Translations under genes and position numbers: made by a program
In this document: in pieces, positions 33,726 to 37,365 of the stretch
Position numbering within the stretch: position 1 is the first letter of the stretch
Layout of the letters: every line of letters starts with the position of its first letter
Notes under the pieces: generated by a model
What the model was told of the DNA's origin: nothing
What the model saw: only the letters and a program-made list of their open reading frames with translations
Database searches by the model: none
Origin: Prosthecomicrobium sp. N25
GTDB taxonomy: Bacteria; Pseudomonadota; Alphaproteobacteria; Rhizobiales; Ancalomicrobiaceae
DNA: 64,000 nt
Assembly: GCF_037203705.1 (NCBI RefSeq)
Contig: NZ_JBBCAT010000001.1
Location: 2,887,418-2,951,417 of the forward strand
Reading direction: 5' to 3'

Positions 33726-34217
33726 CTAACCGGCGCCCCAACCGGCCCGCTTCAGCCGCTGCACCGCCACGTCGAGCGCCGACAGGAAGGTCGAGCGCTG
33801 GCGGCGGTCGAAGGGCCTCGGGCCTCCGGTCACGGCTCCGGCGCTGCGCAGGTCGTCCATGAGATTGCGGGTGGCCAGGGCCATGCCGATCGAGTCGGGC
33901 GTGAAGGGCTTGCCGGTGGGACCGATCACGGCGGCGCCGGCCTTGACGCAACGATCGGCCAGGGGGATGTCGGCCGTGACCACAACCCGGCCCGGGCCGG
34001 CGCGCCCGGCGATCCAGTCGTCGGCGACGTCCGGGCCCGCCGGGACGACCACCCGCTCGACCAGAGGGTCGGCCGGCACCTGCATCCAGCTGTTGGCGAC
34101 GAGGAAGACCTTCAGGCCGTAGCGGCCGGCAACCTTGTAGATCTCATCCTTCACCGGGCAGGCATCGGCGTCGACCAGGATCTCGATGCGCTGCGGGTCC
34201 GACGTCGCGCCGTCCAT
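33726..34217 (-). CDS. YaiI/YqxD (DUF188) family protein
   Basis: 163-residue member of the UPF0178/DUF188 family, a PIN-like fold of uncertain function. Family motifs are [18 protein letters not shown] at the N-terminus, [14 protein letters not shown] and [21 protein letters not shown] start at the ATG at 34217 because AGGGGAGGGG lies directly upstream; the longer open frame runs through a hairpin and a mini-ORF. The gene is downstream of that mini-ORF and the 34239-34266 hairpin, so its expression may depend on read-through. Confidence 0.9.
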
Positions 34218-34238
34218 GGCCCCTCCCCTGAAATGCAA

Positions 34239-34266
34239 GAAGGGCTCCCCCGGAGGAGAGCCCTTC
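34239..34266 (-). terminator. Hairpin between the mini-ORF and the yaiI-family gene
   Basis: Perfect 9-bp stem GAAGGGCTC/GAGCCCTTC with a 10-base loop. On the minus strand it is followed by TTGCATTT, a moderate U-rich tail, so it resembles an intrinsic terminator for the 25-codon ORF. It sits only about 20 bases before the yaiI-family start. Confidence 0.65.
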
Positions 34267-34286
34267 CCGATTACAATTCCGCCGCG

Positions 34287-34301
34287 GTCCGCATTGCGGA
34301 C
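34287..34301 (-). promoter_or_regulatory. Small hairpin after the mini-ORF
   Basis: GTCCGC-ATT-GCGGAC, a perfect 6-bp stem with a triloop, 14 bases after the mini-ORF stop and 21 bases before the terminator hairpin. With the next hairpin it gives a leader-like array ahead of the yaiI-family gene. A regulatory role is speculative. Confidence 0.35.
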
Positions 34302-34314
34302 GCTTCGCAGCCGG

Positions 34315-34392
34315 TCAGGCGGCGCGACTCTCGACCGAGGCGAGAATCCAGGCCACGCAATCCGACGACCGCGGATAATCACGAGTAGACAC
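34315..34392 (-). CDS. 25-aa microprotein with a perfect Shine-Dalgarno
   Basis: GTG-initiated ORF starting [16 protein letters not shown] and ending SRAA-stop. The 14 bases AAAGGAGGTGATCC (plus-strand 34394-34407) are the exact complement of the 16S rRNA 3' end, with GGAGG seven bases from the GTG, so very efficient initiation is expected. The ORF is followed by two hairpins, the second terminator-like. The peptide is soluble with one Cys and one Trp; it has no run of one amino acid as in classic attenuator leaders. It could be a stand-alone microprotein or a leader peptide for the yaiI-family gene. Confidence 0.6.
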
Positions 34393-34393
34393 T

Positions 34394-34407
34394 GGATCAC
34401 CTCCTTT
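34394..34407 (-). promoter_or_regulatory. Fully complementary ribosome binding site
   Basis: AAAGGAGGTGATCC on the minus strand, complementary over 14 bases to the 16S rRNA tail, seven bases (core to start) before the GTG at 34392. Most genes in the window have 4-7 base matches. Confidence 0.75.
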
Positions 34408-34576
34408 CGAACGTTGACGACGGGATCGAATATGGGCCCGTCGCGCCGAGTCGAAAAGGGGGGCGCAAACCTCTGTACGGGGATCCAAACCAGCTGTGCC
34501 CAAAATGCCGCGGCGGCTGCATCCGCGTGGGACCCCCAGCAGACAAATCCGTTCATGGAAGGTTCTATGTTGGACC

Positions 34577-35194
34577 TTATCGCACCTTGGCGATCCGGTG
34601 CGCCAGTTCCACGGCGGAGCGGACGCCGAACTTCTCCAGGATACGGGCGCGGTGGACCTCGACGGTGCGCATTGTGATGCCGAGGCGGTCGGCGATCTGC
34701 TTGTTCATCAGGCCGGCGAGGAGGAGGTCGAGCACCTCCTGCTCACGGGCCGAGAGACTGGCCAGCCGGTCGGCGACGCCTTGCGCGGCGCGGGTCTCGT
34801 CGTGGCGCCGGGATTCCAGCTCCAGGGCGGCGACGACACGGCCGACGAGGTCGTCCGCGTCGAAGGGCTTCTCCAGGAAGTCGTGCGCTCCGTTCTTCAG
34901 GGCCTGGACCGCGATCGGGACGTCGCCGTGGCCGGTGAGCACGATCACCGGCTGGGCCGCGTTCTGGGCCTTGAGGCGGTCCAGCACGTCGAGGCCGGAG
35001 AGGCCGGTCATGCGCACGTCGAGCACCACGCAGCCGCGCCAGCCCGGACGCCAGGCCGCGAGGAAGGCCTCGCCGGAGTCCCAGACCGTCACCGGAAGAC
35101 CGCGGGTCCGGAATAGCCAGCCGAGGCTGTCGCGGACGGCCGGGTCGTCGTCGACCACATGCACCCCCGGGGCAGCGGGTTCGGGCGCGCTCAT
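34577..35194 (-). CDS. dctR: FixJ-family response regulator, DctR-like
   Basis: 205-residue response regulator. The receiver domain has the acidic pocket VVDDDP (13-18), phospho-acceptor Asp59 in VVLDVRM and Lys109 in FLEKPF. A C-terminal LuxR/FixJ helix-turn-helix follows ([20 protein letters not shown], then [15 protein letters not shown]). The ATG at 35194 overlaps the sensor kinase stop, so the pair is translated together. Architecture and the neighbouring dctP gene resemble DctSR of Rhodobacter capsulatus, which controls C4-dicarboxylate uptake. The symbol is by analogy. Confidence 0.8.
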
Positions 35195-37212
35195 TCGGCC
35201 GCCTCCGCGTCGGCCCATGCGGCCGGCAGCCTGACGGTGAAGACCGCCCCGCCGCCGTCCCGCTCGCCATGGTCGAGGCGGCCCCGGTGGAGCTCGGCGA
35301 TGGACCGGCAGATGTTGAGGCCCATCCCCATCCCCTCGGGCTTGGTCGTCACGAAGGGCGAGAAGAGCCGGCCGGCGACGGCGGGCTCGATCCCCGGTCC
35401 CCGGTCGGCGACGCGGATCTCGACCTCCGGGCCGCCCTCCCCGCGGACGAGGGACACGCCGACCTCGAGGATCCGCCGCCGGCCGGGCGGCGTGGCGGCC
35501 ATGGCCTCGATGCCGTTGCGGACGAGGTTGAGCACCACCTGCTCGATCAGGATGCGGTCGGCGCTGATCTCGGGCAAGCCGTCCTCGATCGAGAGGTCGA
35601 TCTCGACCTGGTTCTTGCGCGCGTCCATGACCGCGAAGGCCGCCAGCTCCTCGACCAGCGGGCCGACCTGGACGGGGGCGAAATTGGGCTGGCGCTTGCG
35701 CACGAAGTCGTGGACGCGGCGAATGATCTGCCCGGCGCGTTTGGCCTGCAGGTCGAGCTTCTCGAGCGCCGCCGTCACCTCCCCGGGGTCGAAGGCGCCG
35801 GAGCGCACGAGGCTCAGGCAGCCGGCCCCGTAGCTCGCGATGGCGGCGAGCGGCTGGTTCAGCTCGTGGGCGATGGTGGAGGCCATCTCGCCCATGGTGA
35901 TGAGGCGCCCCGTCCGCTGCAACGTCTCGGCCTGCAGCCGTTCCATCGCCTCGGCGCGCTTGCGGTCGGTCACGTCGATGATCGAGCCCATCCAGCCGCG
36001 GTGGCGGCCCGCCTCGTCGATCAGCGGCGCCTCGTAGACGAGGACGTCGAACACGGTGCCGTCCGGCCGGCGGAAGCAGGTCTCGAAGCTGGTCGGCTGG
36101 GGCGCGCCGCCGGAGAGCGCGTCGTGCCGCGCGAGCGTCTCCTCGACCAGGTCGGGCACCCAGTAGGGCATCGGCGGGCTCCGGCCCACGAGGTCTTCGG
36201 CCCGGTAGCCGACCATACGGCAGAAGGCGGGATTGACGTAGAGGATCCGGCCGTCCAGGTCGCGGGCGCGCATGCCGACCGTGAGGCTGTCCTCCATCGC
36301 CTTGCGCAGGGCGTGGGCCTCGGCGAGGCTCGATTCCGCCTCCAGCCGGCGCCGGTAGTGTCGGTTGAGCGCGAAGATCGAGAGCGCCGCGAGCGCGGCG
36401 AGGCCGAAGATCGCCGCCACCATCGCGTCCTGGGTGCGGCTCGCGCGGGCACCCGTCGTGGTGATCGACAGGACGACGTCGGGGAGCGGCGGATCGAAGG
36501 ACAGCGTGTAGCGCTCCGCGCCGGGGGCGGGCACCAGCGACGACTTCCGCGCCAGTTCCGAGCCGTCGCGATCGACCAGGGCGACGAGGTTGTTCTGCGT
36601 GATCCACCAGGGAACGTGCTGGGCGAGCAGCCGGTCGAGCGAGATGCGGGCCAGGACGGAGCCCACGATGGCGCCTTGGCGCAGGACGGGGACGCGCAGG
36701 TCGGCGACGTAGCCGTGCTGGGCGGTGCGGACCGCGGGACCGACGATCGCGCCGGACAGGCCCGGGATGAGCGGCGGCTCTTCGGCCGGCTCGGCCGCGG
36801 CGGTCTCCTCCGGGTAGGCGGCGCGCACCTGGCCGTCGCGGTCCCGCCAGACGGCGGAGACGATCTCCGGGCGGGCCCCGACCAGGCCGCGCAGGCGGGC
36901 GGCGACCGCGTCGGGACGGGGCGGCGCCTGGGCGAGGTCGAAGGCGATCTGCTCGACGCTCTCGCGGCTGCCGGAGATCTGGAAGCGCAGGGCCTGCTCG
37001 ACCCAGAGGGCGTCGCGGATCAGGGTCTGGCGCGTCTCCTCCCTCTCGCCGCGGTCGGCGAACCAGACGAGCGAGCCGACGAGCGCGGCGATCAGCACGA
37101 TGGCGACGAGCGGAGCGAGCTCGACGCCGCGGTCGAGTGCCGTCCGGCCGCGCCGGCGCGGCTCCCACGACGGCGCGAGCGCCCGGTCCCGATGTGGAGA
37201 CGTCTCGGTCAC
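35191..37212 (-). CDS. dctS: Membrane sensor histidine kinase, DctS-like
   Basis: About 673 residues from the GTG at 37212 (the frame is open to a GTG at 37263, which has no ribosome site; AAGGAAGG lies 12 bases before 37212). One transmembrane helix near residues 32-50, a large periplasmic sensing region, a second helix (FGLAALAALSIFAL), a PAS domain (about 290-420) and a kinase core follow. The core has the phospho-acceptor motif in IAHELNQPLAAIASYG, an N box QVVLNLVRNGIEAM and glycine boxes DRGPGI and GMGMGL. The periplasmic layout suits a DctB/DctS ligand sensor. It is divergent from dctP. Confidence 0.82.
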   Translation of the reverse strand: MTETSPHRDRALAPSWEPRRRGRTALDRGVELAPLVAIVLIAALVGSLVWFADRGEREETRQTLIRDALWVEQALRFQISGSRESVEQIAFDLAQAPPRPDAVAARLRGLVGARPEIVSAVWRDRDGQVRAAYPEETAAAEPAEEPPLIPGLSGAIVGPAVRTAQHGYVADLRVPVLRQGAIVGSVLARISLDRLLAQHVPWWITQNNLVALVDRDGSELARKSSLVPAPGAERYTLSFDPPLPDVVLSITTTGARASRTQDAMVAAIFGLAALAALSIFALNRHYRRRLEAESSLAEAHALRKAMEDSLTVGMRARDLDGRILYVNPAFCRMVGYRAEDLVGRSPPMPYWVPDLVEETLARHDALSGGAPQPTSFETCFRRPDGTVFDVLVYEAPLIDEAGRHRGWMGSIIDVTDRKRAEAMERLQAETLQRTGRLITMGEMASTIAHELNQPLAAIASYGAGCLSLVRSGAFDPGEVTAALEKLDLQAKRAGQIIRRVHDFVRKRQPNFAPVQVGPLVEELAAFAVMDARKNQVEIDLSIEDGLPEISADRILIEQVVLNLVRNGIEAMAATPPGRRRILEVGVSLVRGEGGPEVEIRVADRGPGIEPAVAGRLFSPFVTTKPEGMGMGLNICRSIAELHRGRLDHGERDGGGAVFTVRLPAAWADAEAAE

Positions 37213-37365
37213 ACTGTCGCGGCGCCTTCCTTCGCGGCGTCCTCCCTGCCGGAATGGTGGCACCGCTCGCTTCGGAAATCCACAATGGCGTGGCCGGGGC
37301 GCCCGGCCCTAAGCTCGCCGGCCGGCAGGGTCCGCAAGAGACCCGGGAGAGATGGGGAGGCAGAC

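Follow-up and report, generated by a model that had tools for sequence, protein, structure and literature searches.

An extended Shine-Dalgarno sequence and a peptide-indifferent start-stop unit in a CC2171-like element of Prosthecomicrobium: a candidate ribosome-engaging RNA

Described systems and the CC2171-like element

CC2171, a Caulobacter small RNA (sRNA) whose source is reportedly Landt et al. 2008, is filed in Rfam as family RF01867. It is the closest described counterpart of an element on the minus strand of a 64,000-nucleotide (nt) stretch of Prosthecomicrobium sp. N25 (assembly GCF_037203705.1, contig NZ_JBBCAT010000001.1, positions 2,887,418 to 2,951,417; hereafter the window). The reading favoured here is that this element is probably a translated structured RNA, in which ribosome recruitment and a short translation would be selected, not the peptide. 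Two other kinds of RNA can be compared with it. The STAB-SD 5' stabilisers (SD, Shine-Dalgarno sequence), such as that of the cry3A mRNA in Bacillus, bind 16S rRNA through a 5' GAAAGGAGG segment. The element might work alike, as its own 5' GAAAGGAGG segment could protect an RNA; it differs in that a start codon and an open reading frame (ORF) in a structured RNA follow. The anti-SD sRNAs, known as cuckoo RNAs or alpha-r14, are also alphaproteobacterial small RNAs exploiting the SD/anti-SD code. Their polarity is opposite, since they carry the anti-SD and the element carries the SD.

Bartonella BbsR14 is an example of an anti-SD sRNA (PMC7717549). The rnTrpL/peTrpL system of Sinorhizobium is likewise a small RNA with a terminator, and its translated ORF is very short (PMC10117765); in contrast to it, the element is unlinked to one operon, its peptide is unconserved, and a very long SD takes the place of a leaderless start. 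Extended SD motifs of Staphylococcus aureus share the unusually long pairing of mRNA with the 16S tail and are reported with many small ORFs (PMC13009471). They are a species-wide mRNA feature, whereas here one case of 14-17 nt stands on what would be a structured stand-alone RNA. For CC2171 itself, Rfam 15 gives one additional covarying pair, and Mesorhizobium huakuii MH_s33, annotated as RF01867, is a 215-nt sequencing product (PMC5596092). In Caulobacter, 75.4% of genes are without an SD (PMC4117421). No literature on an ORF or on 16S pairing of the RF01867 family was found among open-licence papers, in a search where the motif doubles as a common 16S primer.

Judged by its homology, the element is a divergent homologue of this known sRNA family. 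A lax Rfam scan gave one clear minus-strand match, to RF01867 (34241-34416), covering model positions 1-159 of 159 with an E-value of 4e-11. The homology is full-length and includes the conserved 5' segment, with its CAAC...GAAAGGAGGUGAUCCAGUGUCU start, and the 3' hairpin. The score of 55.1 bits lies below the gathering score of 75, and a default Rfam scan of the window gave only a tRNA. A further difference is that the family is filed as sRNA, whereas here a start-stop unit and 16S pairing look selected. At E <= 0.001, the model was matched in 69 of 150 relatives, with a single match in 67 of the 69, and the scores form a continuum from 93.6 down to 28.9 bits. Annotation at 75 bits would miss most of these elements, because only 10 of the 69 relatives pass that score.

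The element is distributed across the class. Among 289 genomes drawn class-wide, the RF01867 model matched 61 and the pattern AAAGGAGGTGATCCNNTGTC was present in 41, with no match of the reversed pattern among those listed. Given this recurrence, the arrangement is more than chance. In a pattern scan of named genomes, at least 117 stretches were found; among those listed, 112 bear names that we take to be alphaproteobacterial, four are titled only Proteobacteria or Pseudomonadota, and one, from SAR92 and beside tRNA genes (L207), is probably a chance match. A plasmid search gave two weak matches, one of them over a Skermanella element with no listed gene beneath.

Pairing with the 16S rRNA tail and the start-stop unit

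The minus strand of the window reads GAAAGGAGGTGATCCA and then GTG, which opens an ORF of 25 codons; a terminator-like hairpin lies beyond it. The 16S rRNA 3' tail used for comparison, GGCTGGATCACCTCCTTTCT, was taken from genomes of the same family as the window (G004 and G008, two of 16 genomes searched), because no 16S rRNA match was found in the window's own 99% complete assembly. The super-SD, GAAAGGAGGTGATCCAG (34392-34408), is a 17-nt complement of this tail that ends in the initial G of the start codon. A previous interpretation from the sequence-only reading had given an exact 14-base complement, which is real and of understated length. The ORF described there (34315-34392, GTG start, TGA stop) was also seen behind this extreme SD, with GGAGG and GTG 7 nt apart. 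The exact 14-mer exists as a single copy in the window, where up to three mismatches give four matches against 3.1 expected, and AAAGGAGGTGATCC occurs once in the whole 5.95-Mb genome. The predicted duplex with 16S rRNA reaches -34.9 kcal/mol, as compared with -19.7 and -10.3 kcal/mol for two shorter SD examples.

Changes observed in relatives suggest that the SD is apparently selected for 16S pairing. In the family of genome G082, whose element peptide is identical to a Mesorhizobium one, AAAGGAGGTGATCCNNTGTC with one mismatch allowed was found in 114 of 199 genomes, against one of 199 for the reversed control. One-mismatch copies account for 30 of the 114 carriers, and in every one the change is an A>G or C>T within the SD that retains the 16S pairing as G.U; no pairing-breaking transition (G>A or T>C) was seen among them. 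The changes fall on five sites (GAAGG 11, GATCT 8, AGAGG 5, GGTCC 5, AAAGGGGG 1), none of which lies in TGTC. This tally was done by hand, from a search that admits any single mismatch alike and sees no copies with two or more. Additionally, 16 of 21 SD changes preserve the pairing in 79 elements found with the RF01867 model, a group that excludes those fetched earlier by exact pattern.

The start and stop codons are also kept in relatives. The comparison covers 213 distinct elements, after removal of duplicates and of three elements unmatched by the motif expression (L055, L056 and L082); L207 is counted in the 213 and excluded from the omega, indel, neighbour-strand and mimic counts. Most of the 213 were fetched by patterns requiring a start codon, and the 79 model-found ones were not. 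At the same offset the start codon is ATG in 111 and GTG in 102 of all elements, and ATG in 44 and GTG in 35 of the model-found ones, without any other start. When the start letter was left free in an NNTG search, 41 of 41 elements had ATG, GTG or TTG, and none had CTG. TTG starts were observed in G385, G396 and G167.

All 79 model-found elements have their first in-frame stop after 14-31 codons; in the other two frames, 11 and 14 of them do. Over the whole set the numbers are 209 of 213 compared with 41 and 50, and 200 shuffles gave a mean of 63 and a maximum of 76. The four exceptions are L131 (cut by the contig end), L194 (59 codons), the non-alphaproteobacterial L207 (44) and L217 (36). 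L194 is an Azospirillum element, and its ORF has a signal-peptide-like beginning. A kept SD before a broken frame, the adverse case raised by the sequence-only reading, was therefore not what the relatives display. ORF length is characteristic of the lineage. All 17 Rhodobacterales-named elements have 18 codons, with stops TAG 9, TAA 4 and TGA 4, as have 31 of 34 Sphingomonadales-named elements (one of the 34 being cut short); the 7 Bradyrhizobium-named elements all have 14. ORF length agrees in 40 of 42 disjoint close pairs; 11 of these 40 use different stop codons, and 15 have different last sense codons.

The peptide sequence is not kept in the same way. The peptides, mostly of 14 to 31 residues, are unalike between orders, and the peptide of the window matched no family in Pfam or NCBIfam. 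Comparison of nonsynonymous with synonymous changes in relatives, which had been proposed as a check, did not reveal purifying selection: the ratio omega was 1.08, 1.09 and 0.98 in three overlapping identity bands, and 1.45 in a looser pairing. Substitutions by codon position numbered 54/58/55, 201/197/156 and 502/498/447 in three overlapping identity bands, the first being the closest. Among described small proteins, S. meliloti SEP1 has 23 amino acids, an isoelectric point of 4.18 and the highest translation efficiency of 54 non-annotated candidates (PMC10117765). It resembles some element peptides of 22-25 residues in size and isoelectric point, in a comparison made without sequence, and no link is claimed.

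RNA structure and neighbouring genes

Two long-range helices were named in 39 window-type elements, which were picked from 57 candidates and aligned with MAFFT. P1 joins codons 3-5 to bases before the terminator, and P2 joins codons 7-9 to GACCGCGG. Together with the terminator they pair 87.9% of cells, against 30-57% in slid controls. Double changes are found at 19 of 24 pairs (P1 4 of 7, P2 8 of 8, terminator 7 of 9), and none of 500 shuffles did as well. This test was not blind, because P1 and P2 were named by eye on the same alignment and then counted; RNAalifold, run on this alignment, proposed neither of them, only the terminator and a small hairpin within the SD. Comparable long-range helices are present in SSE/EQP-type elements, with 39-45 of 46 paired at each pair and double changes at 4 of 5 pairs, and in Sphingomonad-type elements, where they are mostly invariant.

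In the window, P2 is present exactly. Its 5' strand CCGCGGTC (34367-34374), which lies within the ORF and is paired in the minimum free energy fold, is complementary to its 3' strand GACCGCGG (34282-34289), and both strands covary in relatives. The usual P1, CATTGTC at codons 3-5 with GACAATG, is replaced in the window by the complementary GATTA (34376-34380) and TAATC (34269-34273). The window's genus has no pairing at the aligned P1 columns, and the P1 covariation is that of relatives.

Two hairpins ahead of the yaiI-family gene had been noticed before, and both were found again. The first (34301-34287) shares 3 nt with the 3' strand of P2. The second, terminator-like hairpin (34265-34240; 34231-34265 with its T-rich tail) has 11 pairs by eye, one of them G.U, and 15 pairs in the centroid fold, while a simple terminator scan gave only another, 5-pair hairpin (34251-34239; 0.6 expected in shuffles). 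A terminator-like hairpin lies 3' of the element in 190 of the 213 elements, against 71-91 across five shuffles. On the upstream side of the window element, a sigma-70 consensus scan found none, and CATATT (34429-34434) may be a -10 element. Across the 213 elements, a weak TTG signal lies at -49 to -47, and CAAC(A)A directly precedes the SD.

A mimic of the 16S tail is enriched downstream of the SD: against mononucleotide shuffles, 57 of 186 elements have a z below -2. In the window the mimic is CCTGGATTCTCGCCTC (34337-34352), which could fold back onto the SD and start codon in a duplex with a predicted energy of -22.0 kcal/mol (z -2.1). SD sequestration as a general rule was rejected, since accessibility is like that of shuffles, although the mimic is enriched. 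In Bradyrhizobium-type elements (e.g. L019 and L163), UCACCUC within the 14-codon ORF is predicted, in 9 of 9, to form a long hairpin with the SD and start codon.

Regarding neighbouring genes, the yaiI gene of the window (33726-34217, minus strand; DUF188, PF02639, E 3.2e-45 in a Pfam search) starts about 20 nt from the hairpin. Neighbour strands were derived for 211 elements with a home-made gene caller. Downstream, 100 neighbours share the strand of the element, 99 lie on the opposite one and 12 are undetermined; upstream, the numbers are 110, 90 and 11. A fixed position before one regulated gene, as a cis leader or attenuator would have, was not found over these elements, and the identity of the downstream gene varies between orders. 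A YaiI-clustering ORF lies by 16 elements, in one case on the other strand; its identity was checked with Pfam in L156 and the window. An RF-1-domain cluster was found at 17 loci; of the 14 listed, 13 are same-strand downstream genes, with a Pfam check in L118.

Rhodobacterales-type elements, for example in L123 (4665-5084 and 5352-6218), sit between a Vut_1-type transporter gene and an ArfB-like RF-1-domain gene. In L123 the Vut_1-type (putative vitamin uptake) gene was Pfam-checked and the GGQ of the RF-1-domain gene was seen. According to the home-made gene caller, two same-strand genes flank 17 of 20 elements of this type. UpsM of Rhodobacter was considered and rejected, as it lies in the mraZ 5' untranslated region (PMC5089854) and the Rhodobacterales-type elements lie by the RF-1-domain gene. 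In the window, a receiver-LuxR response regulator gene (34580-35194, minus strand) adjoins the element. It forms a two-component pair with an apparent sensor kinase gene (35191-37263, minus strand; judged from sequence), and a TRAP-type solute-binding protein gene seems to be next on the other strand, near 37.4 kb.

Competing explanations and a proposed mechanism

The reading as a translated structured RNA draws its support from homology, selection for 16S pairing, selection of start and stop, a peptide without purifying selection, covarying helices and independence from neighbours. In the mechanism proposed, a stand-alone transcript, about 175 nt long and a homologue of the CC2171 sRNAs, would hybridise through its 5' tail with the 16S rRNA 3' tail and capture the 30S subunit. 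The ribosome would initiate at GUG or AUG and cover 14-31 codons, opening on its way P1 and P2, helices with their 5' strands inside the ORF, and it would halt before the terminator hairpin. The act and extent of translation would be selected, and the peptide would be a by-product. Ribosome occupancy may toggle the RNA between a translated open fold and a closed one, formed by P1/P2 and/or pairing of the SD with the 16S-tail mimic. The stability or pairing activity of the RNA could thereby report, or buffer, free 30S subunits. The sequence-only reading was right in its thought that ribosome occupancy may matter. The element is presumably transcribed and translated in this organism, and its RNA may physically engage 16S rRNA or the 30S subunit, as suggested by the evolutionary pairing evidence. 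Its cellular role could be, for example, that of a decoy or a ribosome-gated switch.

Several observations weigh against this reading, and part of them favour a purely non-coding sRNA, whose 5' tail would bind 16S rRNA or mask anti-SD-like sites and whose start codon and ORF would be incidental. Rfam files the family as sRNA, the peptide is without purifying selection, and covarying helices from codon 3 on would oppose translation. Moreover, ORF indels are not enriched in multiples of three, which make up 2 of 4, 9 of 28 and 38 of 115 in the identity bands, and 29 of 166 in ORFs against 93 of 576 past the stop in the looser pairing; these counts come from gapped and loose alignments, and an earlier count was uninformative, as the aligner opened too many gaps. 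Five of the 21 SD changes in model-found elements break the pairing, and the SD is no more exposed or hidden than in shuffles (27 of 71 elements less accessible, 71 of 190 being sampled). P1 is the weakest helix, with double changes at 4 of 7 pairs and 80% paired. In the window's own family the element was found only in the window's genus, in 3 of 15 genomes, and the elements are related, which makes the counts not independent. Most Caulobacter non-coding RNA regions are untranslated, and two of an earlier set are translated (Schrader et al., PMC4117421). An incidental start codon and ORF, however, do not explain why only ATG, GTG or TTG stand at a fixed offset, or why an in-frame stop is kept with all three stop types in use. 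Non-coding function without translation is thus considered unlikely.

Constraint on the peptide would count against the translated structured RNA from the other side, in favour of a functional stand-alone microprotein with a strong SD and a maintained ORF. Ser is encoded at codon 2 in 210 of the 213 elements, by TCT, TCG, TCA and TCC, and 28 of 31 GGAGCARCC copies inside ORFs share one frame; because of these two patterns, some peptide constraint is possible. The peptides are also alike within some groups. The other three copies (L008, L010 and L074), however, retain GGAGCAGCC out of frame. With omega about 1 or above, a near-flat codon-position pattern, dissimilar peptides between orders and a window peptide outside any Pfam or NCBIfam family, the earlier proposal of an abundant microprotein as the selected product found no support and is regarded as quite improbable. 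The other earlier proposal, a leader or attenuator of the downstream gene (yaiI here, the ArfB-like gene in Rhodobacterales), fits the short distance from hairpin to yaiI start, the recurrence of YaiI-clustering and RF-1-domain genes, and the same-strand flanks of most Rhodobacterales-type elements. Nevertheless, yaiI-like genes follow in a minority, gene identity changes between orders, and neighbour strands are random. The element is therefore not taken as a yaiI leader, which was rejected on these strand statistics, and leader function in general appears very improbable.

A more specific version of the translated structured RNA can be put forward only tentatively. In it, the element would be a typically single-copy alphaproteobacterial 'ribosome-gauge' RNA: a 15-17-bp 16S duplex would capture the 30S subunit, peptide-indifferent translation would sense or buffer ribosome availability, and the internal copy of the 16S tail would act as the off switch. 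This version is possible and rather doubtful in its full form. As far as these searches show, an apparent selection of a super-SD for 16S pairing, together with a start-stop unit kept without purifying selection on the peptide, is new.

If the reading as a translated structured RNA is true, the element would be a natural example in which translating, and not the product, is what selection favours. It would also turn an Rfam 'sRNA', for which no function was found in the literature searches, into a testable ribosome-engaging RNA. An SD of 14-17 nt would be kept here although many alphaproteobacterial genes start without an SD.
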